Source: a bacterium (GTDB lineage Bacteria; SZUA-182; SZUA-191; JAJRXT01). Taken from it: DNA of 37,668 nucleotides. The notes beneath the pieces were generated by a model. It saw nothing but the letters and a program-made list of their open reading frames with translations. It searched no databases and was not told where the DNA came from. Below are positions 5,788 through 31,144 of the stretch, one piece after another; within the stretch, counting starts at the first letter, position 1; each line of letters begins with the position of its first letter. The translations under genes and the position numbers were made by a program. The DNA is taken from NCBI GenBank assembly GCA_024276125.1, contig JAJRXT010000081.1:1-37668 (forward strand), given 5' to 3'.

Positions 5788-5940
5788 AAGCCAGAGAACC
5801 TCTTTTTTTTAAATTTAATTTTAAAACAGATTAAGTTGTGTTATAGACAAAGACCCCGCTTCCGCCGGAGGCGGTGAGAGGACAGTTTTTTTGGATAAGC
5901 GTACTTAAAAATAAATTGTATGAACAATGTTTATATTCAT

Positions 5941-6001
5941 ATTGTAGATGGCGGATTTTTAAATCCGCTATATAACCGACCTAAAGGTTGGTATCTACAG
6001 T
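5941..6001. other. Compact three-stem (junction-like) inverted-repeat structure
   Basis: An outer 7-bp stem (TGTAGAT at 5943-5949 with ATCTACA at 5993-5999) encloses two perfect hairpins: GCGGATTT/AAATCCGC (5951-5968) and ACCGACCT/AGGTTGGT (5974-5991). The whole unit could fold as a three-way junction in DNA or RNA. It lies in the 5788-6600 interval, which has no convincing gene. It may be another small mobile repeat or a structured RNA. Confidence 0.45.
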
Positions 6002-6314
6002 CTGTTGTGCGGTGCAATATGTTTAATTTTAAAATAGATATAATCATTATAAGAATTAATAAATTATGGCAGATTAAGCCTAAACTGTCAAGCTGGAGCA
6101 TTATATTTATGTTTTGGAATTTCAAGGTTATTTAAATACATTTACAAAACGGGTACCGCCTTTTTGACCTAAGGCCAACAAAGAAAGTTGCTTTAGAACA
6201 TATCCATGTTTTGAAATAAGGCTGTAAGTATTATAAATGATGGACACTTTTACTTGTTTTTGTTATAATTTCTAATATAAGTATACTGTTGTATACGATG
6301 AGGGGGGAAGTGAT

Positions 6315-7760: not shown

Positions 7761-8831
7761 CTAAAATATGCCGCAGTAGTCTTTAATAAAAGAGCCCGGT
7801 TTACTGGTAAAATGATAGGTGTTGAAATTACAACATGACAGGCATTTTTTAGTACAATCGGCAAGTTGTTTTTTAACAGCTTCATCATTAATTTCAAAGC
7901 CGTTGTTTTCCATATTAAAATGCCCCAAATCAGCCGATAATAAAGACAGGCAGTAAAACAGCTTGCCTTCCTCGTTTATACCCAAAGTATATTTACCGGC
8001 CGGACATTTCCAATCGTCCTGACTTCCAGTGCCATTATTCTTAAGCCGTTGTTTTACTATCCTAAAATAATCGGTAGGATTGATAATGGTATATCTTTGT
8101 CTTTTTCTATCAATTATCCAGTCGCAAAGTTTATCCAATTTTTTATAATCTTCTTGTTCGCTAAAATACAGGGAATCCTCTTGAGTCACAAAATTTGGAT
8201 AAGGAATCAGCGGTCTCTCTATTATATGTAATGAGACAGATACATTGTTTTTTTTGCCAATTTCCACCAATTCTTTTACTTCCGACATGTTTTTGGTGGT
8301 AATTACCGTATTTAACTTGATTTTAAAACCGAATTTCTTGCTTTTTTCACGCAGCATTTGGAATTGCTCTTGTATGCACTCCAGCGTTTTATCCAAGCCG
8401 AATGAATTTTTTCTTACGGTATCAACTGCGAGGTCTACCACGCCAACCCCGGCCAACGCCAATTCGTCTATTAAATCTTCAGTCAATAATTTTCCATTAG
8501 TCGGTAAATAGGTATACATATTTTTCTGGGTCGAATAAGCGATAATTTTGACCATTCGTTCGCCAAGTAACAATGGTTCTCCGCCCATGATAGCCACCAC
8601 TCTGCAACCAATAGACCTTAGCCAATTCAAAGATTTTACTGCTGTGTTAAAACTCATACTTACTGCATTGTCTTTTACAAAGCAATAACCGCATTTGTAA
8701 TTACAGCTCTGATTTGTAAAAAAATAGGACCAGATCGGAATATTCTTTCTTGTTAACTTCCCCTTAATATAAGGTAGAAAAAAAGAAGTTATTCCATTAA
8801 CTTTCTTTCTGCCATTCATTTTATTCACCAA
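7761..8831 (-). CDS. Radical SAM protein with SPASM-like C-terminal cysteines
   Basis: 356 residues. The radical SAM cluster motif CNYKCGYC sits near residue 43 (CxxxCxxC), followed by the glycine-rich GGEPLLLGE strand and PTNGKLLTE. The C-terminus has further cysteines: CPAGKYTLGINEEGKLFYC and then CTKKCLSCCNF and a final CGIF, matching an auxiliary-cluster SPASM or twitch-type domain. Such enzymes modify peptides or make cofactors. No precursor peptide or partner gene is visible next to it, so the substrate is unknown. It reads alone on the minus strand and is flanked by repeats. Confidence 0.85.
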   Translation of the reverse strand: MVNKMNGRKKVNGITSFFLPYIKGKLTRKNIPIWSYFFTNQSCNYKCGYCFVKDNAVSMSFNTAVKSLNWLRSIGCRVVAIMGGEPLLLGERMVKIIAYSTQKNMYTYLPTNGKLLTEDLIDELALAGVGVVDLAVDTVRKNSFGLDKTLECIQEQFQMLREKSKKFGFKIKLNTVITTKNMSEVKELVEIGKKNNVSVSLHIIERPLIPYPNFVTQEDSLYFSEQEDYKKLDKLCDWIIDRKRQRYTIINPTDYFRIVKQRLKNNGTGSQDDWKCPAGKYTLGINEEGKLFYCLSLLSADLGHFNMENNGFEINDEAVKKQLADCTKKCLSCCNFNTYHFTSKPGSFIKDYCGIF

Positions 8832-18503: not shown

Positions 18504-20417
18504 GTGGCTGATACAATTAAAGTTTTTCTTTGCTGTGCCGAAGATGATAAGGAAAAAGCAAAAAAACTATATAGGAAATTACAAGAGAACGGCTTTGATC
18601 CTTGGCTTGATTCCGAAAAACTTTCACCGGGTCCGCAATGGGAATCTGGCGTTAAGCAAGCAATTGAAAATGCTGATTTTTTTGTATCCTGTCTTTCTGA
18701 AACTTTAGTAAAAAGCCGAATATTTAAGCATAAAAAGATTATTCGGGCTTTGGAGCTTTTGGAAGAACAGCCTGAGGGAGAAATATACCTTGTATCTGTT
18801 TGGATTGAAGCTTGTGAACTTCCCCAACGCCTGGGAAATCCTGATCGAATAGATGTATTTACAGAAGAAGGATTTGATAAACTGGTAGACACGCTTAATC
18901 TAAAGCAGACTAAAAAAATTGATGATGATTCAGAAAAACCGGTAAAACAAACAGAAGAAGAATTTAATAGATTACTGTCCGCACTCATGACAGGACAAGA
19001 AGAAGAAAAACCCTCTATTGCCGCTTCAGCTGAAACCGCACTATCAAAAAAACTAGAAGAAGCAAAAAAAGTAGAAAAACCTAAAGAAAACAAAAAAAAG
19101 CTTTTTATTGCCAAAACAAAATTTTTTTTCAAAAAGCTACTAACCAAACTCAAGAAAAAAAAAGATAAAAAAACCCCCGTTTCAACTGAAACTGCCTCAA
19201 AACAAGAAGAACAAGAAGAAGAACAACAACAAGAACAACAAGAAGGTGTCTTTGATAAACTTGCAACTGCAATTAACCTTGAGGAGAGTAATAATAATTA
19301 CCTTCAATATAGCGCCAGGTCCAAGTCAAAACAACCAAGTAAGAAAGAAGCAAAAAAAGATATTACCGCGGTCAAAAGGCTTTTTCCTCTATTAATTGTT
19401 TTAGTCCTTGTTTTTGCCGTTTATATGTTAATAACCTACCGCGATAGCTTTGTTGAATATAAAACCGAACCAACAACAAAAACAAACAACACTAGAAGGG
19501 TAGTTAGACGCAGTAATATTGACATAGAGCCAAATGAGAATACCAGCGCTTATACTGCATCAAGAAGTGAAACGCTAATGGTGATGGATAAATCTACGAA
19601 GAGGAAAAAAACTACTGGAACTAGGGTAAGAAATAAATATAAACCAAGACCAGTAAACAACATTAAAAAAAATACCCAAAATACCCCAAAAGCCCAAAAG
19701 CGAATTGAAATTAATACCAGTTATAATAATTCTTTTTCCAATGTAATTGGAATGAAATTTGTCTACATCCCACAGGGCAGCTTCAAAATGGGAAGTCCTT
19801 TAACTGAAAAAGGTCGCGGTGAAAACGAAGACCTGCATAACGTAATTCTAACAAATGGTTTTTATCTGCAAACAACAGAAGTAACACAAGAACAATGGAA
19901 AAAAATCATGGGAAATAACCCTTCTCGCTTTCAACGCTGCGGTGATAATTGTCCGGTAGAGGGCGTATCTTGGAATGATGCAAAAGAATTTATTAATAAG
20001 CTAAATGAATTAGAAGGAACAAATTCATACCGGCTTCCGACAGAAGCAGAGTGGGAATATGCTTGCCGAGCGGGAAGTGTCGATAGATATTATTTTGGTA
20101 AGGATTCAAGCAGAATTAGAGAATATGCCTGGTATAGGGATAATTCAAATAGGTCAACACAACCGGTAGCTAAACGGATGCCAAACAAATTTGGTTTATA
20201 TGATATGTTAGGTAATGTTTTTGAATGGTGTGAAGATTGGTATGGCGATTATCCTTCTGGAACAGAAAAAAATCCTACAGGCTTGTCCCGCTGAGAATAT
20301 AAGGTGCTTCGCGGCGGCTCCTGGAGACTTACTCAGAATAGCCTTCGCAGCGCTTACCGCTTCGGCGATTATCCACATGTACACTATAATAGCTTTGGGT
20401 TTCGTGTTGCTAAATGA
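18504..20417 (+). pseudogene. TIR - transmembrane - FGE/sulfatase-modifying-factor fusion with one in-frame TGA
   Basis: GTG start with AGAGGG upstream. Residues 1-140 form a TIR-like domain (IKVFLCCAEDDKEKAKKLYR, then FDPWLDSEKLSPGPQWESGV, with the putative catalytic Glu after that Trp). Residues 140-290 are charged and low-complexity (KKK, EEQEEEQQQEQQ). A membrane segment lies near 292-312 (LFPLLIVLVLVFAVYMLITY). Residues 410-637 are an FGE-sulfatase (C-type-lectin fold) domain with GMKFVYIPQGSFKMGSPLTE, TTEVTQEQW, RLPTEAEWEYACRAG and GNVFEWCEDWYGDYP. A TGA at 20292-20294 interrupts NPTGLSR/EYKVLRGGSW, where the family usually has Gly; the same frame goes on to a normal FGFRVAK end at 20417. 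The gene stands alone. Confidence 0.8.
20310..20405 (+). other. Candidate diversity-generating-retroelement variable region
   Basis: This is the C-terminal end of the FGE domain, framed by LRGGSW and GFRV. Between fixed GC-rich codons (CGC GGC GGC TCC TGG at 20310-20324, CTT CGC AGC GCT at 20343-20354) lie codons such as CTT, ACT, AGC, TAC, TTC, GGC, GAT, TAT, CAT, CAC and TAT. Most of these are reachable from AAC or AAT by changing only adenines. This is the pattern expected of adenine-directed mutagenesis of a C-type-lectin target. No reverse transcriptase or template repeat is in the window. Confidence 0.5.
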
Positions 20418-20460
20418 AGATGATATAGACGACTATACTACAAGATTTCATAAAATGTGA

Positions 20461-20637
20461 TTTGTAAAAAAGGCTATTGAGTTAACTCCGAAAAAGATTA
20501 CATTCTGTCATTCTGAGGCCGAAGAATCTCTCAGTCTACGGGGGTAGATTTTTCACTTCACTTCGTTTAAGAATGACAGCTAATAAAATTAAACAGCTTT
20601 GGTTTCGCAAGAGAACTCTAGTAGCTATTTTTGTAAA
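20461..20637. mobile_element. MITE family A, copy 2
   Basis: The left end (TTTGTAAAAAAGGCTATTGA, then GTTAACTCCG) and the complement of the right end (CTCTAGTAGCTATTTTTGTA) form imperfect terminal repeats. A core palindrome lies at 20505-20580. It starts about 44 nt after the end of the TIR-FGE reading frame. The inner right part shares AAACAGCTTTGGTTTCGCAA with the left part of the 14853 copy in complement. Confidence 0.65.
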
Positions 20638-20648
20638 TGTATATTTAG

Positions 20649-20705
20649 AGGTTTCTCACCTCTAAACACCTGCGCCAAAGCAATTAGTTTAGGGGTGAGA
20701 CGTTC
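20649..20705. repeat. Inverted repeat between two MITEs
   Basis: GGTTTCTCACCTCTAAAC pairs imperfectly with GTTTAGGGGTGAGACGTT around a loop of about 20 nt. Confidence 0.5.
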
Positions 20706-20720
20706 AGAAACATAAATTTA

Positions 20721-20880
20721 GTGTCGAACAGTTTATAACCTAAAAAATGCTCTTTAACCTGTCATTCCTGCGGAGGCAGGAATTTATTTTTCAACTTGGA
20801 GTCACGTTCTCCGTTTTCATGAGGACAAACTTTACGGGAATGACAGGAAAAAAGCAAGTTTTCTGATTATGATACAGTTT
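20721..20880. mobile_element. MITE family B, copy 3 (inverted, degenerate)
   Basis: The left end GTGTCGAACAGTTTATAACC and the inner CCTGTCATTCCTGCGGAGG match the complement of the right half of the 14921 copy. The right end GACAGGAAAAAAGCAAG, then TTTCTGATTATGATACAG, matches the complement of its left half. The region 20881-21143 that follows has no recognisable gene. Confidence 0.65.
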
Positions 20881-21143
20881 TATAGCCATGAACCGTGTAA
20901 TAACACAAGAAGTAATATCTAATGGTTTTGGAATTCTTAAGCATTCAAGATAGCAACAGCGCTAGTTAAACAGGAATAAATTATTAACTCAATATGATAT
21001 ATATCCAGCCAGAAACAACTAGTCAACAATTATTATAATCGCATTGATTTTTGTAAAACGCAAATGATTTACTACAATACCGTGATTTTGATTTGAAATA
21101 AAATATGCTCCAAATAGCTTTTTATTACAGAAAGTTATAAATA

Positions 21144-21413
21144 CTAAACAGCTTGACTCAGCGCTTTTCCTGGTTTAAATTTAACTACATTTTTCGCCGC
21201 TATTTCAATTTCTTCGCCTGTTTGTGGATTCCGGCCTTTTCTGGCAGCGCGCTCTACCACGGAAAATGTGCCAAAACCAATTAAGGTAATCGTTTCACCC
21301 TCTTTTAAGGCATTGCTTATGCCCTCTACAACAGAATTTAAAGCCTGTTCTGCTATGGCTTTGGTTAATTCATTGTCTTTAGATATCTTTTGGATTAAAT
21401 CCGCTTTGTTCAT
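21144..21413 (-). CDS. HU family DNA-binding protein
   Basis: 89 residues, the HU length. It has the N-terminal dimerisation helices (MNKADLIQKISKDNELTKAI), the LIGFGTFSVVERAARKGRNP beta arm with the conserved RNPQTG arm tip, and the VKFKPGKAL ending. It bends and compacts DNA. A ribosome-binding site (AGGAGA) lies just before the ATG. It is a single gene on the minus strand. Confidence 0.96.
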   Translation of the reverse strand: MNKADLIQKISKDNELTKAIAEQALNSVVEGISNALKEGETITLIGFGTFSVVERAARKGRNPQTGEEIEIAAKNVVKFKPGKALSQAV

Positions 21414-21872: not shown

Positions 21873-24146
21873 TTAAAACATTGGCTCCATTTCAAGCGCT
21901 GGATGATTTACCTGCTGCATAAACTCCATTACCTCGTCCTCTATCGTAGCATTGCTCTCATCAGCTACTAAATCCAAAAAGTTCTCCACATTGTACTCTT
22001 TTAACACTTGTTTTAATTTTTCATCTGTTTGGCCTAGTTTTTCTATTAACGCTCTAAGCTCATCTTTTAATATTTTAGGCATCCATGTTATACGCAAGAG
22101 TCCCCCTTCAGCGCTGATATATTTCCGGCTGCCAATATAATGCTTGCTATGCCCTATAAAGCCAGGTGTCTGCAAACCGCCGCCGACTGAACCCGCCATT
22201 GTGGAAAATTTCATCCCAGCAGGCGTCATCTCAGGAAATTCCCGGTTTACAATCATAACCCCGTTGGTCATCGGCAAAATAGCGCTGATACACTCAAAAC
22301 AGCCGCATGAAGTCATAGGGTCTTCCATCATGCTGTAGGCATTAAAAGCAGTAATATTACCCCGTGAAGCCTGAGCAATAAATTCATTGATACCCTTCCA
22401 TTGTCCTTTAACCGCATCTATCGGCTCACCCTTTATAAGAGGCTGATTAGGACCGGTAGGCTCAATCTGATGAGCAGCCTTACCATCCAGCCAGCTGTAA
22501 GCTCCGCATAATCCGCTGCGTTCAGGAGTGATTACACACACGTGATTAGGGGCAAATGACTGACACAGGGTACAGGAATAAAAGGTCTCCACAGATTCAT
22601 CTGTCATGGAACCCAACCGTTCATCACGAAAATGATATACTTTTCTGGCATCCTCGCGCAGACGCTCCACATCCTCTTTTTTCGTATATATTGTCACCTG
22701 TACTTTATCTAAAATCTTACCGTATTCACCATGGAATTTAGCATGAATAATCTGCCCTAAGTGCTTAAAATTAAAGCCTGCTTTTTTAGCGTCTTTACTG
22801 ATACGCACCCAGTTGATATCCCTTTGTCCCATATGGAATACGCCTTGTGCCGCATTGAACATCCGGTGAATCTGCCGCTCTAATATCGGTTCAAAATCAG
22901 CCTGCATTTTACGTCCGGCTACCTCAATCCACACTGCCATGGGCAGCGCCTTACCTTCTGTTACCTCGTCAATTTCAGGACCTATAACTTCAACTTTACC
23001 GTCTTCAATATCAGCTAATTCCCGCGAAGTAACAAACTCAAAAGCAGCTGAACGGTTACCGCCCATCTCGCAGTACATATCGTCTTTCCTGATACGCTCG
23101 CCCTCAAATGCCGGACCAAAGGATACCGGTATCGGTACTTTGCTGATCTGTACTTTTAATCCGCGCACTTCAATCGCTTTACCTACAATCTTATCATGGG
23201 CTATACCCGTACCGCCTGATACTACGTGTTCATACGTACATACGCCTGTAGGCAGAATCTCAGGAATACCGATATCGGCAATAGTGGGGAATCCAAAATT
23301 GATGGCGCATGCCGCTTGAGCATATTTCTCATCATCTAAAAGCGCATCTGGCGCTGCATCCTTATCCTCTCCCAGAGCCAATACAAAAGCAAAGATGCGG
23401 TTTTTATTATATAACAGCGCTCGTCTGAAATCACCGGCCTGTACTCCGCAAAAATACAAAGCCGCCCGCGTGGCAAAGCCTAATGCAAATACTGTAGCGC
23501 TAATATCCTTACCAAAAGGTACAAGCCGCGTCTCCCAGCCCAATTGCACGCCTTCAGATCGTAATTGTTCGGCAAAACTTACTCCTTCGGTTTCAGAAGA
23601 CATAAATACATACAGATTTTTCTCCTGTAATTCTCTGGCAATTTTTACCGCGGTTTTACTATCCGGAGCCGCGCCTACAATGGCTGCAAATCCGGGAGCG
23701 GAACCATCCACAAACTCAATGCCGCGCTTACGCATAATTACATCATCAGCCGCCCCCAGCCAAAAATCACCCTCTTCAGGACAATTCTCCATTACTGCAT
23801 AAGGCACGGGGTCTTGTAAGTATTTAATAATCTCAATAATTTCATCAGCAAACAAGGTCGCCATACCGGCATCTAAGGTATGCCCCAGATAAGGCGCCCA
23901 AACATGCTCCGCCGGCACAGGGGGAAGCAGTCCCTTGGTTTTTTCTAATACTGGTCTCAGATCGGATAATGTGCGTACTTCCATACCGGTCATACCGTAA
24001 ATTACCGGCAGGAAATAACCCGTATTGGGGAAGTCCACCACTTTATCAGCGCCATATTGTTTAATGGCGTCATTTAGACTGTTCTCAGCCCTGGTTACTA
24101 TTTTGTGGGCGCCTCTTATAGCCGCCGATGCGATTATTTTTGACAT
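21873..24146 (-). CDS. acsB: Acetyl-CoA synthase catalytic subunit of CODH/ACS
   Basis: 757 residues, full length and intact. AcsB joins CO, a methyl group from the corrinoid protein and CoA to make acetyl-CoA at the nickel-containing A cluster. The cluster ligands are visible in YSCTLCQSFAPNHVCVITPE and, further on, TSCGCFECISA. The N-terminal CODH-contacting domain and the ferredoxin-interaction region are present (HVWAPYLGHTLDAGMATLFA is in the N-terminal part). The AAGGAG site sits 8 nt before the ATG. It is the last gene of the minus-strand Wood-Ljungdahl region; about 830 nt of repeats and an MNT relic separate it from cooS. Confidence 0.97.
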   Translation of the reverse strand: MSKIIASAAIRGAHKIVTRAENSLNDAIKQYGADKVVDFPNTGYFLPVIYGMTGMEVRTLSDLRPVLEKTKGLLPPVPAEHVWAPYLGHTLDAGMATLFADEIIEIIKYLQDPVPYAVMENCPEEGDFWLGAADDVIMRKRGIEFVDGSAPGFAAIVGAAPDSKTAVKIARELQEKNLYVFMSSETEGVSFAEQLRSEGVQLGWETRLVPFGKDISATVFALGFATRAALYFCGVQAGDFRRALLYNKNRIFAFVLALGEDKDAAPDALLDDEKYAQAACAINFGFPTIADIGIPEILPTGVCTYEHVVSGGTGIAHDKIVGKAIEVRGLKVQISKVPIPVSFGPAFEGERIRKDDMYCEMGGNRSAAFEFVTSRELADIEDGKVEVIGPEIDEVTEGKALPMAVWIEVAGRKMQADFEPILERQIHRMFNAAQGVFHMGQRDINWVRISKDAKKAGFNFKHLGQIIHAKFHGEYGKILDKVQVTIYTKKEDVERLREDARKVYHFRDERLGSMTDESVETFYSCTLCQSFAPNHVCVITPERSGLCGAYSWLDGKAAHQIEPTGPNQPLIKGEPIDAVKGQWKGINEFIAQASRGNITAFNAYSMMEDPMTSCGCFECISAILPMTNGVMIVNREFPEMTPAGMKFSTMAGSVGGGLQTPGFIGHSKHYIGSRKYISAEGGLLRITWMPKILKDELRALIEKLGQTDEKLKQVLKEYNVENFLDLVADESNATIEDEVMEFMQQVNHPALEMEPMF

Positions 24147-24276
24147 ATATTTGCTCCTTTTATGCTAAATATATCGGATAGTAGTATTTATGTGTAGGGT
24201 TAGCTATTGTAAATAAAGATATTCTCGCATAGTGTAATAAAACATATAAATTCGGTAAGTTAGTTTGCTTTAATTT

Positions 24277-24300
24277 AATAACTCATGTTACGCAAAAAAG
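24277..24300. repeat. Short dispersed repeat, copy 1
   Basis: AATAACTCATGTTACGCAAA with the following AAAG recurs inverted at 30167-30189, upstream of acsC and downstream of acsD. The two copies flank the cooS-acsC segment in opposite orientation. Confidence 0.55.
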
Positions 24301-24311
24301 AATAATCTCAC

Positions 24312-24503
24312 CGTAGGGTGGATTAAAAAAAAGGGGTGTTATATAACAGGTGTTCTACATGTTAAGGTAGCGCCGAATAATCGGTAAGTTACCCCGAATC
24401 CACCACGCTTACTAAGTTTGGTGGATTCGCAACCATCAGAAAATGCAGGTCTTAGCATATACTTTTAGGCTCTTTCCCAATATGGGCTTGATCCACCCTA
24501 CAT
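24312..24503. repeat. Inverted-repeat element with CGTAGGGTGGATT ends
   Basis: CGTAGGGTGGATT (24312-24324) faces ATCCACCCTACAT (24491-24503). An inner hairpin GAATCCACC/GGTGGATTC lies near 24399-24430. No coding capacity. Part of the acsB-cooS spacer. Confidence 0.65.
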
Positions 24504-24514
24504 TGAAAAGGCAG

Positions 24515-24649
24515 CTGTCATTCTGAATGAAGCGTAAGCGAAATGAAGAATCTGCCTCCATATGCGAGCAGATTCTTCGGCCTACGGCCTCAGAATGACA
24601 GCGAAAAAGTACCCTTTTCACACAGAATGTTCTTAAGTCAACAGCATTG
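24515..24649. repeat. Core palindrome plus CTTAAGTCAACAGCATTG end
   Basis: The core (24515-24602) ends CCTCAGAATGACA and runs through CACAGAATGTTCTTAAG to an end like that of the 6315 element. Its left half lacks the matching end, so it may be a truncated copy. Confidence 0.65.
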
Positions 24650-24654
24650 CACCC

Positions 24655-24933
24655 CTAACATCCCTCTTGGTCAAAAAATTCCCCCGCCTCAATTCTGGTT
24701 AAGGCATTATTCAACTTCTTTAGCGTTTCTTTATTGGATAAAACATCTTCAATTCAATAAACTTTAAGAGGTCAGGCAGTTCTTTAAACTCAACCAGGAT
24801 GTCTAAGTAGCTTTTCTTTTTTTGCTCGCCGCGAGCATAAGGGCCGAAGACTCCCATCTTTTACTTCATATTTTTTATCTAATTCATCCTTATACTCTTT
24901 AAGCAGCCTGACAATCTCATTAAATGACAGCAT
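24655..24933 (-). pseudogene. MNT nucleotidyltransferase relic with two frameshifts
   Basis: The ATG at 24933 opens MLSFNEIVRLLKEYKDELDK and KYEVK. A shift in an A-run leads to MGVFGPYARGEQKKKSYLDI and LVEFKELPDLLKFIEL. A second shift leads to EDVLSNKETLKKLNNALTRI and EAGEFFDQEGC before the stop. The family motif would be GSxxxGxxxxxSDLDI; here the serine is replaced by Pro and the first aspartate by Tyr. This copy is therefore truly inactive. No HEPN partner is found. It ends 5 nt from a mobile-element end. Confidence 0.75.
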
Positions 24934-24980
24934 GGTTATCGTTCCTTATACAATACCGAACTCCCGCAAGTTCTGCGTAT

Positions 24981-26918
24981 TTATCCACACTTTAGATCGC
25001 GGCGCATGGCCATATCATATAATACGCGTTCTTTTTGTTTTTCTATCCCTAGCGCTGTGCGTCTTACTACAATCTCATCAATGATAATCTGTGCCATTTT
25101 ATTAGGATTTGGTTCAAAAGCCCAGAAACCGCCGGTGATTTCTTTAAATCCTTTGGTTAAAAGATCGTTTACGCACTTACTGTTAGCAACCGGAGATTTA
25201 GAACCAAATACCACCGGAGCGCCGGAGCCTACAAAATACTGACCAATAGCAATAGCCTTCTCACTCATCCATTCAGGAGCGCATCCCGCCACCGGCAGAT
25301 CAGCCAAATCATTACCCAAACCGCCTTCATGCACCATAGCAGCACAGGCAATAAGAATACGGGAATTATCCACGCACGAACCGCAATGCAGTACCGGAGG
25401 AATACCTACTGTTTCGCAGACCTCCGCCAAACCCGAACCGGCATATTTAACAGCGGCCTCAGGAATAAGATAATCCTCATTAGCGCAGGCATAAGAGGCA
25501 CAACCCGTCTGTAATACAAGCACATTGTTGGCAATTAATTCCTTAACCACCGTGCTGGTAATACCTTTACCCTCATCTTTCGGCAGGGAACAACCAACCA
25601 CGCCGACTACCCCCAAGATACGTCCGTTTATAATATTATCATTTAACGGGCGGTATGATGAGCGAAAAGTTCCGCCCAGCATATAGCTTATAGTTTCATG
25701 CGAAAAACCGGCTATTAAATCCGCCGTCTTCTCATCTGGAATATGTACTTTTCGCCGATTCGGAAAATTATCAACCGCTAGTTTAATAATCTCTTTAGCC
25801 TGCTCATAGGCATTTTCCTCATCAAACGGTATATGAGCGGCGCCCGGTATTTTTGCTTTGTCTGAAGTAGTAATAATCTTGGTGTGATAACACTTGGCAA
25901 TTGCTGGAAGCGACTGCATAATACACTGAATATCCACTGCCATAAGCTCTACGGCGCCGGTAATTAAAGCTAATTCCTGCTGAGAAAAACTACCCACCAT
26001 TGACAGTCCATGACGCAAAAGCACCTCATTTGCCGTACAACATATACCTACGATATTAATGCCGGAAGCTCCTTTAGCGCGAGCCGCCGCCTGCAAGCTT
26101 TCGTCTTTAACCGCCTCCACAATCATCTCAGCTAGCAATGGATCATGCCCGTGTACAATAATGTTTACCTGATCTTCTTCCAATACGCCCAAATTAGCCT
26201 TGCCTTTTAAGGGCGACGGCGTTCCCAGCATAATATCCTGTAATTCAGTAGGAATCATAGAGCCGCCCCAGCCATTAGATAATGCCGTACGCGTGCCGGC
26301 CATAAGCAGGCTCATCACATCCTGATCATTACCCACAATAGTGCGGTGCATCATCTCCACAATTTCCATATCAATACCGCGGGGAGAAAGACCTTTATCC
26401 TTCCATAATTGCCGGCGCTTTTTAGGAGCGCGGCCGATCATCTTAAGCTCGCCTTCCTGCTGTCCGAATTCAGCCGTAATCTTATCGCCCAATTCAATAG
26501 CAATATCTTGTTTATCGCGTCCATCAGTGTCTATCCCGTACACCTTGGCAATCATATGTAACTTTACTTCATCCTTTATTTCATAATGCTTAAGTTCGCC
26601 CTTAGCAGCGCCGCGGAATACCTTTACGATTTCCCTGGCATGGTCAACATGACCGGCATTACCTGCGGCAATCATACGCGCAAAATTACGAGCGGCTACC
26701 GTATCCTGAGTAGCTCCGCAAACGCCGCGCTTTTCCTCGCCGGATTTACTTACCAGCCGACAGGGTCCCATAAAGCAATTCTTACAACAAGCGCTAGTTG
26801 CCCCGATAGGGCAGGGTTTCATACTGGCGCTACGCGCATGAGCCGTTTGAATGTTTTCAACTTTAGCTATATCTAACAGTTCTGTCACTGCTTTGCCTTT
26901 ATTTTTTTCATCACTCAT
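24981..26918 (-). CDS. cooS: Carbon monoxide dehydrogenase catalytic subunit (CooS/AcsA)
   Basis: 645 residues, full length. It reduces CO2 to CO, or oxidises CO, at the Ni-Fe-S C cluster. The N-terminal cysteines for the B and D clusters are seen in CPIGATSACCKNCFMGPCRL and CGATQDTVAARNFAR; the nearby AGNAGHVDHAREI holds the conserved histidines. Later cluster regions include GICCTANEVLLRHG, GCSLPKDEGK and LQTGCASYACANE, with HCGSCVDNSR. An AGAGGG site precedes the ATG. A mobile element sits 41 nt upstream. AcsB lies downstream on the same strand; together they would form the CODH/ACS complex. Confidence 0.97.
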   Translation of the reverse strand: MSDEKNKGKAVTELLDIAKVENIQTAHARSASMKPCPIGATSACCKNCFMGPCRLVSKSGEEKRGVCGATQDTVAARNFARMIAAGNAGHVDHAREIVKVFRGAAKGELKHYEIKDEVKLHMIAKVYGIDTDGRDKQDIAIELGDKITAEFGQQEGELKMIGRAPKKRRQLWKDKGLSPRGIDMEIVEMMHRTIVGNDQDVMSLLMAGTRTALSNGWGGSMIPTELQDIMLGTPSPLKGKANLGVLEEDQVNIIVHGHDPLLAEMIVEAVKDESLQAAARAKGASGINIVGICCTANEVLLRHGLSMVGSFSQQELALITGAVELMAVDIQCIMQSLPAIAKCYHTKIITTSDKAKIPGAAHIPFDEENAYEQAKEIIKLAVDNFPNRRKVHIPDEKTADLIAGFSHETISYMLGGTFRSSYRPLNDNIINGRILGVVGVVGCSLPKDEGKGITSTVVKELIANNVLVLQTGCASYACANEDYLIPEAAVKYAGSGLAEVCETVGIPPVLHCGSCVDNSRILIACAAMVHEGGLGNDLADLPVAGCAPEWMSEKAIAIGQYFVGSGAPVVFGSKSPVANSKCVNDLLTKGFKEITGGFWAFEPNPNKMAQIIIDEIVVRRTALGIEKQKERVLYDMAMRRDLKCG

Positions 26919-26959
26919 GATAAATTTTCCCTCTGTTGGAATTATTGTATGCTTATTTT

Positions 26960-27149
26960 TATAGCTAACCCAAGTTGCTACCTATGCTGAAGTTATCCAT
27001 TTTTTGTCATTCTTCAGCTTTCAGCCGAAGAATCTGCTTGCATACGGGAGCAGATTCTTCACTCCGTTTCGCTGCGTTTTAAATGACAGGTATGTAAAAC
27101 CAAATATTTCTAAAAATAAACCTATAGGTAGCAACTTGGGTTAGCTATA
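26960..27149. mobile_element. MITE family D with 26-bp perfect terminal repeats
   Basis: The left end TATAGCTAACCCAAGTTGCT (26960 on, through 26985) is exactly repeated in inverted form at 27124-27149. The 190-bp element contains a core palindrome (27007-27089). It lies in the 5' region of cooS, between cooS and vapC. The TA at both tips could be part of a TA target duplication. Confidence 0.85.
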
Positions 27150-27218
27150 TTAACTGATTGTTACCTTTGTCGCAAAACAAATGGTAAACCACTATTTTAC
27201 AAGCTAATACGGTACGAA

Positions 27219-27593
27219 CTATGGTTTTTGGATATATTTAACTCCCTTAATCCCTTTAAAATCATTGTCTTGTGTCCATAACGCCGCTTTATTTGCAATA
27301 GCTGTTGCTAAAATAATACTGTCAGCAAGCGGCAGTTTAAAATCAATGCTAATCCTGGCGGCATTTAAGGCTATCGTAATATCCAAATCCACAATCTTTC
27401 CTTCTTGCATTATAGCAATTGACAAAAGGGCAGAATCCTCGCCCCGTTGTTGTAATACACGTTTAAAAACTTCTAAAACACATATAGAAGGAACAATAAG
27501 ATTATTTGTATCTTCAATAGAAGAAGCAAAAAAATTGGCATTCGGCCCATCGGCAAAATACTCAAGCCAGCCACAGGAATCAACTAGATTCAT
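27219..27593 (-). CDS. vapC: VapC-type PIN-domain ribonuclease toxin
   Basis: 124 residues of the PIN fold. The acidic metal-binding residues are in place: Asp in MNLVDSCGWLEYF, Glu in SICVLEVFK, Asp in LPLADSIILATA and Asp in LWTQDNDFKGI. PIN toxins cut tRNA or rRNA. The start codon overlaps the stop of the upstream antitoxin by 4 nt, a typical coupled TA pair. Confidence 0.92.
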   Translation of the reverse strand: MNLVDSCGWLEYFADGPNANFFASSIEDTNNLIVPSICVLEVFKRVLQQRGEDSALLSIAIMQEGKIVDLDITIALNAARISIDFKLPLADSIILATAIANKAALWTQDNDFKGIKGVKYIQKP

Positions 27594-27796
27594 ATTCTAT
27601 CACTATCCCGTTTTATCGTGGTATTGATTCCTTTTAAGAAGCCCCGCATTTCCTTAACGCTTTTTACAGGAATTAACTCTATGCGATTTTTATATTGTAT
27701 CACCTTGATTTTTTTACCTGGTTTTATGTTTAATGATTCCCGTATACTGCGAGGAATTAGCACCTGAAATTCAGGAGAAACTGTTACTACTTTCAT
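27590..27796 (-). CDS. vapB: AbrB/SpoVT-type antitoxin of VapC
   Basis: 68 residues. It begins MKVVTVSPEFQVLIPRSIRE followed by LNIKPGKKIKVIQY, the swapped-hairpin AbrB DNA-binding fold, then a C-terminal toxin-binding tail. It would neutralise the PIN toxin and repress the pair. Downstream vapC overlaps it by 4 nt. The interval 27797-28104 upstream has no gene. Confidence 0.88.
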   Translation of the reverse strand: MKVVTVSPEFQVLIPRSIRESLNIKPGKKIKVIQYKNRIELIPVKSVKEMRGFLKGINTTIKRDSDRI

Positions 27797-28104
27797 GATA
27801 AAACTCCATTCGGAATTGACTAATAGCGTGAAAATATATTATCCCCACATTTTTTGAATTTTGACTAGGCAATTTTTTTAGATTTCTAACCCGAATAATT
27901 CGGGAATTAATTTTAACCAAAAGCTTACCCTGTTGAAATTATAGACATTTATACTTCCAGTTTTAAAACATGAAGTTTCAAACCATGCCTACGGGGAGTT
28001 GGCCTGTCACGTTATTTTACAAGCTGTTTTCGCAACCAACCGCTCTAATTATGAAATCTGCGGATTAAGGTGTCAAGTGGGGCGACTTTAGAATACTCAA
28101 GATT

Positions 28105-28554
28105 CTACAACGCCCCGCTGGGTGGAAGTAATCTTCCGATTAATTCCTTAAGGAAATTCAATTCATCCTTCTGGGTTTCAAGAGCGGTTTCCACGTGTGT
28201 CTGCCGCTGATTCATCTGCCACTGCATACGTAAGACAAACCCCAAAGTCAGCATAGCAATGCTTACAAAAAGCCCGATCATCCAAGTAAGCATATCAAAA
28301 CGGTTGTTCATCTCAGAACGCAGATCAATAAAACGTCCATTCATTTCCGAACGCAAATCAGCAAAACGACCGTTTATCTCAGAACGCAAATTATCTAACC
28401 GCTTGTTTATGGAAGCCTGTCCTTGCTCTAAACGTGTTAGCCGTTCAACAACCTCTCTGTCTGAGATACGCTGAGCGATCTCTACAGAATAAACAGTCTC
28501 TTGCCCTAACAGCAGAAAAAATAAGATAAATAAAATTATTTTAAAGGCTCTCAT
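28105..28554 (-). CDS. Small membrane-anchored coiled-coil protein with 11-residue repeats
   Basis: 149 residues from the ATG at 28554, which follows a GGGGGGAAA site; an in-frame ATG 15 nt upstream is less likely. An N-terminal signal peptide or anchor (FKIILFILFFLLLG) is followed by a coiled coil with three tandem 11-residue units, LRSEINGRFAD, LRSEMNGRFID and LRSEMNNRFDM. A second membrane segment (MIGLFVSIAMLTLGFVL) and a Gln-rich helix end the protein. The layout resembles small hypothetical proteins with DUF-type hydrophobic anchors. Function is unknown. It lies inside the Wood-Ljungdahl region, between acsC and vapBC. Confidence 0.75.
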   Translation of the reverse strand: MRAFKIILFILFFLLLGQETVYSVEIAQRISDREVVERLTRLEQGQASINKRLDNLRSEINGRFADLRSEMNGRFIDLRSEMNNRFDMLTWMIGLFVSIAMLTLGFVLRMQWQMNQRQTHVETALETQKDELNFLKELIGRLLPPSGAL

Positions 28555-28614
28555 GATATTTCCCCCCACCTACATTATACCAAACTCTGCTAAGCAGAAA
28601 AAACAATCTATTAT

Positions 28615-29964
28615 CTAGGCCGCCTGAGCCTTTAAAAAAGCGGGTAGATTACTGGCCTCCCTGGGGCCTACCATAATATTCCAATCCGGCAGCAATTCGG
28701 CCACTTCGCCGGATAAGACAGCCACAGCGCCGGGAAGTATAAGGTTGCGATTTTTGGTCTGTCCTGTAATTCCGCAGGTTTTTACCACCTTGGCAATTTT
28801 ATCGGCATTAAATTTATCAGCCGCCCAAGCGGTAAGCACGCTCATACCCTCGGCATCGGCAATCATTAACCAACTGGCTATTTTACTGTTTTCAATCTCG
28901 CCGGCTACAATAAAGTAGGTTAATGAAAAATTAGTGGTAATCATAATTGGCGAGTCGGCATCCGGTTAGCCTATCTTATAAACATTCTCCTCTACTTGTA
29001 ACGGCTTTTGCGGATCAGTATAAATATTTTGCGTTAAAGTAAGCAATGGCAACAACTGCCAGTCTTCGGCTGCCTTAAGTACAATAATAGAGGCATATCG
29101 CATTACATATACCCCCGCGCAAAGGGCTTCCTGTATCGGATCATCTGTATCTGCTGCCGCACATACCATAACCGGATAGCCTAAGCCTTTAGCGGATTTT
29201 TTTAGAGCGGCTCGTCTTATTTGCGTCAGTTGCGACAAACCGGCGCCCAAAGAGGCAGCCACAGGCTCTAATACTATGTCTTTTACTCCTAAACCAGCTA
29301 CCTTTTCGGCCAATTCTGCTAATTTTTCCAGTACCTCTGCGCTGGATACCGCCAGCGGACATTGATATTTTTTAGCCAGAGTCGCCATAGCTTCATAATT
29401 ATCAGCCGCAGCGGCATGTATAAGAGGTCTTTCTTTAGATAATATTTCTAAGCCAGCCTCTAGGTTAGCAGCATTTTTACCGGCTAAAATAAGCGGTAGG
29501 TCCGAATTAGCCTTTACCGTATTTATAGCTTGGATAAATTTGTCCTTATCAGCGGAGCTGTTTTTAACCATAATAAGACCGGCTCTAAGATTCTGTCCCA
29601 CGCGTTCAAAACAAACAGCCTGCACCTGTTTTATTTTTTCGGCCAGTTTATCGGCGCCTAAGGTATCTTCAACCTGCAAGGTAATTGCCGGTGGATGTAC
29701 AAAGGTTTTTTCATGGCGGAAAAGTACGGTTTCCTCGCCAATGGTTACTTTTTTATCGCTAGTACCGATAATAACCTTACGTATTGGCGGAGCCGATTCT
29801 TCAGCCAAGACCGCCTTAGCGTCATCGGATATATGCGGGCATTTATCCACCGGCGCCTGTTTTTGCGCAAGTTTCATGGCAAATGCCAGACAGGTAGGGA
29901 ACCCGCAGTCCTTGCAATTGGTTCTGGGTAGATGTTTATAAATTTGTATACCGGTAAGCGCCAT
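28615..29964 (-). pseudogene. acsC: Corrinoid iron-sulfur protein large subunit, interrupted by in-frame TAA
   Basis: The first frame (332 residues) begins with the iron-sulfur domain: HLPRTNCKDCGFPTCLAFAM, with a further Cys in VDKCPHIS. The TIM-barrel middle follows. It stops at 28966-28968 after LQVEENVYKIG. The same frame goes on PDADSPIMITTNFSLTYFIV for the C-terminal corrinoid-binding domain to 28615. The total of about 449 residues is the usual AcsC length. AcsC carries the methyl group on cobalt from AcsE to AcsB. The stop falls at the boundary between barrel and corrinoid domains, and an ATG lies 8 codons on. No good ribosome-binding site precedes that ATG. Nonsense mutation, gene fission or a consensus error are all possible. 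AAGGAG precedes the main start. Confidence 0.88.
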
Positions 29965-30166
29965 AATGGTTTACTCCTTATTTGGTTAACTTTTGTTTCG
30001 TTTTAAAATTTTTAATTGCTTCTTTGGATCGTTTGGAATTCATTGCCAAAACCAATTTTTAAAAAGAGGTTTTTATATACGGTTTTACCGTCTTAATAAA
30101 TAATTTAGCAGAGTCAATAATCACCGAACCATAAAGATAGCTGCCTTTAAAATCTCCGAATTTATT

Positions 30167-30189
30167 TTTTTTGCGTAACATGAGTTATT
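30167..30189. repeat. Short dispersed repeat, copy 2
   Basis: Inverted copy of the motif at 24277. It lies in the 220-nt acsD-acsC spacer. A 40-codon frame running from it on the minus strand shows no family resemblance and is not called. Confidence 0.55.
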
Positions 30190-30208
30190 TAACATGATTT
30201 TGTATCCA

Positions 30209-31144
30209 TTAGGCCGCCATAAGTCCTGCCACGGTTTTGCGTACTTGTGCTACAGCCTGCGGGTGGCGCATAATAAGTGCATCGGAGCCGGACATAAGCA
30301 GTCCTATAGCGCTGGTTGCTTCCCAGAGTATCCCGCGGGATTTGGTATCCCCCCAAGCCTCATTATCCGTTTTGGCTTCTTTTGCCTTCCAGGCCTCAAT
30401 TCCAACGTCTGATATAATCGGCATCTGCACCATTTTATCATTTTGTTTTAAGGCCGCTTGACGCACACGCTCCATAACCGAATAAGAGTATTCCAAACCA
30501 TAACCCAATGAAGACGACATAGTATCCATTACAATCTGCTCTTGTTTTACGCCCATTTGCGTAAGCAGGATATTTAATTGCTTGGCTAAATTTATATCAA
30601 GATTGGATAAGGCCAGCACATAATGCCCATAGGCCATGGCCGCTGCGCCTATTGTCTTATAATTTTTCTCCTGCGCCTTACCTAAGAGGCAGTTATAGCC
30701 TGATGCTGCTTCAGCGCAAGCCTTTAATACCTCGGCATCCTTTTCCAGATGATTAGCGCCCAAAATGATTAAAGGAACTTTAATCGCCGCTAATACCTTT
30801 TTAACCAACTCACCGGCATCCGAAGCCGAAGAATCCCCCTGATCAGGATGAGTGGAATACAGGCGCAAGGCGACCATATCCGCCTTATACTTATCCTGAC
30901 ATAAAAGCGCCCAAGCCACAGGATCGGCATATACATCGCCGTATATTTCATTTAAGGCCGGAGCCCAATCACTCGGTGCGGTATCCCATATTTCAAAAGC
31001 AACAGGAATACCCGCCTGCACGCCCCCTTCAAACCCCAAAAACGGGTAAGAGCCGGCTCCTCCCAAGGTTACTGTATTATCTTTACCGATGGTTACGGTG
31101 TTTATTTTACCATTATATCTTTCTTTAGGTATAGCAAATGGCAT
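30209..31144 (-). CDS. acsD: Corrinoid iron-sulfur protein small subunit
   Basis: 311 residues, full length and intact. AcsD is a TIM-barrel protein that pairs with AcsC to hold the cobamide that shuttles the methyl group. It opens with VTIGKDNTVTLGGAGSYPFL, followed by FEGGVQAGIPVAFEIWDT, both typical of the family, and has MDTMSSSLGYGLEYSYSVME near residue 215. The AGGAGG site is strong. It follows the TumE-like gene after only 28 nt and precedes acsC on the same strand. Confidence 0.96.
   Translation of the reverse strand: MPFAIPKERYNGKINTVTIGKDNTVTLGGAGSYPFLGFEGGVQAGIPVAFEIWDTAPSDWAPALNEIYGDVYADPVAWALLCQDKYKADMVALRLYSTHPDQGDSSASDAGELVKKVLAAIKVPLIILGANHLEKDAEVLKACAEAASGYNCLLGKAQEKNYKTIGAAAMAYGHYVLALSNLDINLAKQLNILLTQMGVKQEQIVMDTMSSSLGYGLEYSYSVMERVRQAALKQNDKMVQMPIISDVGIEAWKAKEAKTDNEAWGDTKSRGILWEATSAIGLLMSGSDALIMRHPQAVAQVRKTVAGLMAA

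Follow-up and report, generated by a model that had tools for sequence, protein, structure and literature searches.

A nonsense-truncated TIR-FGE gene whose C-terminal tail may once have been the target of a diversity-generating retroelement

The DNA analysed here, referred to throughout as the window, is a whole contig of 37,668 bases (C21) from a bacterial genome of 2.98 Mb that is assembled in 159 contigs and 94.16% complete. It contains a gene that joins a TIR domain, through a long, charged, low-complexity linker and a hydrophobic segment, to a domain of the FGE (formylglycine-generating enzyme) family; in its product, Pfam matches TIR_2 at residues 7-128 (E 2e-20) and FGE-sulfatase at residues 418-582. 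The features of the gene and of its surroundings are collected in Table 1. The intergenic region that follows carries, at 20505-20580, the element TGTCATTCTGAGGCCGAAGAATCTC with a roughly inverted partner, AAGAATGACAG, which resembles a dispersed repeat and is present as one copy in the window; farther downstream, the minus strand of 21873-31144 is occupied by a CO dehydrogenase / acetyl-CoA synthase gene cluster (Wood-Ljungdahl pathway).

Table 1. Features of the TIR-FGE gene and its downstream region, in window coordinates.
Feature	Position	Strand	Remarks
TIR - charged/low-complexity linker - hydrophobic segment - FGE gene	18504..20294	+	596 codons, closes at in-frame TGA
TIR_2 domain	18522..18887	+	the sole TIR_2 in the genome
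AAG (Lys78)	18735..18737	+	aligns with the catalytic Glu position of four TIR homologs
Hydrophobic stretch LFPLLIVLVLVFAVYMLITY, putative membrane span, ends approximate	19377..19442	+	read from the translation by eye
FGE domain, TvpA-type, C-type-lectin fold	19755..20414	+	full length only with TGA read-through
In-frame TGA stop	20292..20294	+	same codon as the start of the variable repeat in relative G008
In-frame FGE remainder (EYKVLRGGSW...LRSAYR...GFRVAK, stop)	20295..20417	+	equivalent of the relatives' DGR variable repeat
NNY-rich, GC3-rich codons amid FGE anchors	20310..20405	+	from codon statistics
Intergenic, possible place for an accessory gene, template or reverse transcriptase	20418..21150		none found

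Beyond the TGA the frame continues, without a frameshift, for 40 further sense codons (EYKVLRGGSWRLTQNSLRSAYRFGDYPHVHYNSFGFRVAK) that complete the FGE domain: the match to the Pfam FGE-sulfatase profile stops at position 195 of 255 when translation ends at the TGA, and runs to 255 with read-through. In a predicted structure of the read-through domain, a model of medium quality (pLDDT 68) used only to assign the fold and to place the strands relative to the TGA, the last two strands would lie beyond the stop. Because the TGA precedes it in frame, the segment 20310-20405 lies outside the translated TIR-FGE frame as assembled. The first-pass annotation, which envisaged a TIR receptor diversified by a diversity-generating retroelement (DGR), overlooked this stop; the gene no longer encodes the tail on which that proposal turned. 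TGA also closes other genes in the window and elsewhere in the genome, and a scan for tRNA-Sec returns none at or above the family cut-off; the codon is therefore read as genuine termination, or as a variant in the consensus, and not as recoding, though an error in sequencing or consensus calling could still have produced it. A second FGE gene of the genome (L027, at C43:107687-108394) likewise has one in-frame TGA, within a loop.

At the opposite end of the gene, the alignment of the TIR domain shows HKK where four homologs have QKE, QRE or HKE; the glutamate of the (Q/H)(K/R)E motif is thus absent, with lysine in its place. In TIR chemistry the catalytic glutamate is linked to NADase activity, and its replacement makes such activity unlikely in this protein. 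With the TGA at one end and the Glu-to-Lys change at the other, both ends of the gene point to decay.

The FGE domain has its closest solved structure in TvpA of Treponema denticola (PDB 2y3c), which phmmer matches at E 3.4e-35 (formylglycine-generating enzymes reach about 8e-18); a fold search also returns TvpA among the best two proteins. The paralog L025 in the same genome differs from it in that FGE enzymes are its closest match. An FGE enzyme requires a C-terminal pair of catalytic cysteines, and EYKVLRGGSWRLTQNSLRSAYRFGDYPHVHYNSFGFRVAK contains no cysteine; judged by this and by the weaker match to the enzymes than to TvpA, the domain is not an FGE enzyme. In a phylogenetic tree it is sister to an FGE from the sister genome (G001:C42; support 98/97), and a clade of 19 rows (97/98) holds the window FGE together with every DGR-target FGE in the tree. 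The remaining FGEs of the genome are not in this clade, and most of them pair with their own orthologs. The closest GTDB relatives, L048 and L049 (57% and 54%), have tails nearly identical to each other and no template within the nearby DNA examined; the clade therefore includes non-diversified members as well.

Genuine DGRs occur in relatives of the same class. The complete one at G008:C86 (L089) consists of an FGE target, an avd-like accessory ORF and a reverse transcriptase (RT) with the motif IGNLTSQ; its repeats lie at 5930-6053 and 7932-8055, the variable repeat has 124 bases, and the mismatches between template and variable repeat fall on A in 21 of 21 cases. After that of G001, its FGE is the closest to the window's (53-54% identity), and its translated template, RGGSWNNNARNCRSANRNNNNPDNRNNNIGFR, can be aligned gap-free with RGGSWRLTQNSLRSAYRFGDYPHVHYNSFGFR of the window, the homology running from about the window's TGA codon onwards. 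G006 has two further loci with FGE targets (C213 and C15), whose mismatches to the template are confined, or nearly so, to A; at C213 (L090) two FGE targets share a single template, and one of the two is a protein of 1116 residues with a NACHT N-terminal helical domain, an inactive REase, a NACHT domain and the FGE. IGNLTSQ is present in the RTs of all five loci in class relatives with a template and a variable repeat; the DGRs of G005:C113 (L105) and G007:C46 (L106) have non-FGE C-terminal targets (MSS.YWSST...YYVRAVR), and in a Saprospiraceae contig an nSTAND1-FGE protein is the target. The window tail lies where G008 and G006 have their variable repeats and TvpA its C-terminus, though behind a stop codon; in naming the FGE C-terminus as a site of DGR action, the first-pass annotation thus had both domain and position right, as the real DGRs of G008 and G006 show. 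These class DGRs, including the NACHT-FGE target, are the better material for studying diversified bacterial sensors.

Three tails of G006 (C108/C112; L130, L131) have a common GC-rich scaffold. In the pair that was compared, identity is 81% upstream and 1 of 12 at the variable positions; the G006 assembly holds no template for them, and they are likely to be variable repeats of a DGR lost from that assembly. L054 (from a Kuenenia MAG), L041 (G006) and L038 (G004), which are tree neighbours, show strong joint NNY and GC3 anomalies; the DNA examined for each contains no template, and their tails are candidate targets of remote DGRs.

The anchors RGGSW, LRSA and GFRV stand in the window tail where they had been placed from the sequence; RGGSW, RSA and GFR are the conserved end of the entire FGE family. 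Of the codons between 20310 and 20405, which were claimed to be mostly reachable from AAC or AAT by changes at A, 26 of 32 end in C or T, but AGA at 20325 and GTA at 20379, both at DGR-variable positions, are incompatible with such an origin. This is the most NNY-rich stretch of 32 codons in the gene (mean 15.1). Over 37 codons, 29 are NNY against 21.8 expected when synonymous codons for the same amino acids are drawn from the rest of the gene (P=0.0013), and GC3 is 17 against 10.6 expected from the same resampling (P=0.011); these tests and the divergence test described below were picked after the data had been seen, and their P values are modest and to be taken as moderate evidence. As a control serve 37 FGE tails from four genomes devoid of a DGR RT (G000-G003): 3 of them are as NNY-rich as the window, 2 show as large a GC step, and no tail has as large a GC3 step. 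The NNY count by itself was dismissed as proof of a DGR, since those 3 DGR-free tails match it. In verified DGR variable repeats, NNY or GC3, though not invariably both, deviates to the same extent as in the window; at the variable positions, NNY codons number 10 of 12 in the window and 11-12 of 12 in DGR variable repeats and templates, with DGR-free tails sometimes reaching 10-11. The codon pattern of 20310-20405 moderately exceeds chance.

Divergence from the sister genome adds to this picture. The window and G001 are identical at 3 of 12 variable positions, compared with 62% of the domain upstream (ratio 0.41, P=0.015). When other FGEs of the genome are paired with their G001 or G002 orthologs, the ratio is 0.61-1.41 over eight such pairs; in DGR-like pairs it is 0-0.61. 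The anchors agree at 12 of 20 positions, no better than the rest of the domain, compared with 13-17 of 20 in DGR pairs. The tail of the G001 sister has the strongest NNY excess among the 37 DGR-free tails.

A search of the window's own genome for the RT and template, which the first-pass annotation had itself set as the test, goes most of the way towards refuting a diversified tail: it yields one RT, of another class, and no template with the A pattern. The only RVT_1 protein (G000:C138; L001 / L107) is identified by PADLOC as RT_UG13b (E=1.1e-146) and lacks the motif (I/V/L)GxxxSQ, a mark of DGR RTs (PMC3521204); being UG13b, it was rejected as a DGR RT. Beside this candidate defence RT lie two small ORFs that appear, by eye, to encode an MqsA-type zinc-finger antitoxin and its toxin partner. 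A template has to equal the stretch at every position where the template is not A: IUPAC patterns built on this rule for 20325-20374 and 20360-20405 find, with up to 3 mismatches, only their own site and one low-complexity chance match. Across the same genome, neither blastn with the window DNA nor a query with the template peptide of a relative brings up anything but FGE paralogs and short chance matches; the window DNA has just short matches in eight genomes of the class, and none of the relatives' templates examined fits it. The template scan recovers the template for 7 of 7 known DGR variable repeats, phage BPP-1 included. In the present assembly there is no working DGR variable region at 20310-20405, and a variable-looking FGE tail unaccompanied by template and RT cannot be called a DGR target. 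What remains of the earlier proposal is partial in both respects: the observation is partly confirmed, and its interpretation partly supported, in that the same FGE segment is diversified in class relatives, but with neither template nor DGR RT here.

These results leave about an even chance that the tail is that of an orphaned, decaying former DGR target; the codon, divergence and phylogenetic evidence make a former variable region plausible. The gene would once have encoded a sensor in which a TIR domain at the N-terminus and a membrane span were followed by a TvpA-type FGE domain at the C-terminus; the last 40 residues of that domain would have formed the variable face that binds the ligand, the part rewritten by DGRs in relatives. 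The ancestral FGE was probably a DGR target: cDNA copied from the template, randomised where the template has A, would have overwritten its segment, and the NNC/NNT codons, the GC3 step and a divergence limited to the variable positions would be what this left behind. The genome would later have lost the DGR cassette; drift would have followed, the TIR domain would have lost its catalytic glutamate, and the TGA now stops translation right before the variable segment. Past DGR action, loss of the DGR and loss of function in the gene are what we infer. Several observations stand against this reading: neither a template nor a DGR RT is left as proof of descent; 2 of the 12 variable positions have codons other than NNY, and the anchors show no extra conservation relative to G001; G001 itself has no RT, and the closest GTDB relatives have near-identical tails and no template in the nearby DNA examined.

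That the gene was never a DGR target in its lineage falls somewhat short of an even chance, and descent from a former target is slightly more likely. The tail would then be the ligand-facing C-terminus of a TvpA-type FGE diverging under ordinary selection or relaxed constraint, its codon pattern a by-product of conserved Arg, Gly, Ser and aromatic residues plus chance, and the gene now truncated by a nonsense codon. The equal NNY counts in 3 of 37 tails from genomes lacking a DGR RT, the conserved tails of L048 and L049 with no template nearby, and the lack of any RT in G001 (the sister genome), G002 and G003 all accord with this; however, amino acids fail to account for the excess among synonymous codons, none of the DGR-free tails equals the GC3 excess, and the divergence at variable positions is unlike that of the genome's other FGE ortholog pairs.

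It is improbable that the gene encodes a TIR receptor held in the membrane, with an outward FGE domain that a remote DGR outside the assembly hypermutates or did until recently; if true, the arrangement would be Toll-like, with a sensor that diversifies rapidly. RT and template would reside in unassembled DNA, and the TGA would be a consensus variant or an error. The assembly is indeed fragmented (159 contigs, 94% complete), templates do go missing, as for the G006 scaffold of three tails, and remote DGR targets are known (PMC8867640); but this requires both RT and template to be missing and a false or very recent stop besides, the template scan works on 7 of 7 DGRs, and AGA and GTA sit at variable positions. 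Hardly credible at all, and set aside here, is a TGA recoded as Sec, Trp or Gly to give a full-length protein: the frame is open and conserved for 40 codons past it, and the second FGE gene also has its TGA, but TGA is an ordinary stop elsewhere, no tRNA-Sec reaches the cut-off, and the position corresponds to a variable loop in paralogs and not to a conserved Cys or Trp site.

Compared with known systems, the window gene has the FGE/C-type-lectin fold of TvpA, and the finding concerns the C-terminal segment that is variable in DGR proteins; unlike TvpA-type DGR proteins, it has no template or DGR RT in its genome and its segment lies behind a stop codon, and unlike TvpA it carries a TIR domain and a putative membrane span ahead of the FGE domain. 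With FGE/SUMF1 it shares the Pfam family FGE-sulfatase, but its match to these is weaker than to TvpA and its tail has no Cys. It shares with G008:C86 and G006:C213 / C15 a homologous FGE, the same segment and the anchors RGGSW, RSA and GFR, whereas those loci have their own IGNLTSQ RT and template, and no TIR is seen in the targets examined in G008 and G006 (NACHT-FGE in G006). DGR targets with FGE/CLec sensors are of an already known kind: in multicellular bacteria, DGR-diversified putative antigen sensors join FGE/CLec to conflict-system domains, some of them TIR (PMC10907252; PMC7159879). The coupling of an FGE/CLec sensor to a conflict-type domain, TIR in some systems, is common to these and to the window gene, which differs in being a single gene with no DGR, putatively membrane-anchored, truncated and bereft of its TIR glutamate; it may be a traceable case of a DGR target that has survived its retroelement.
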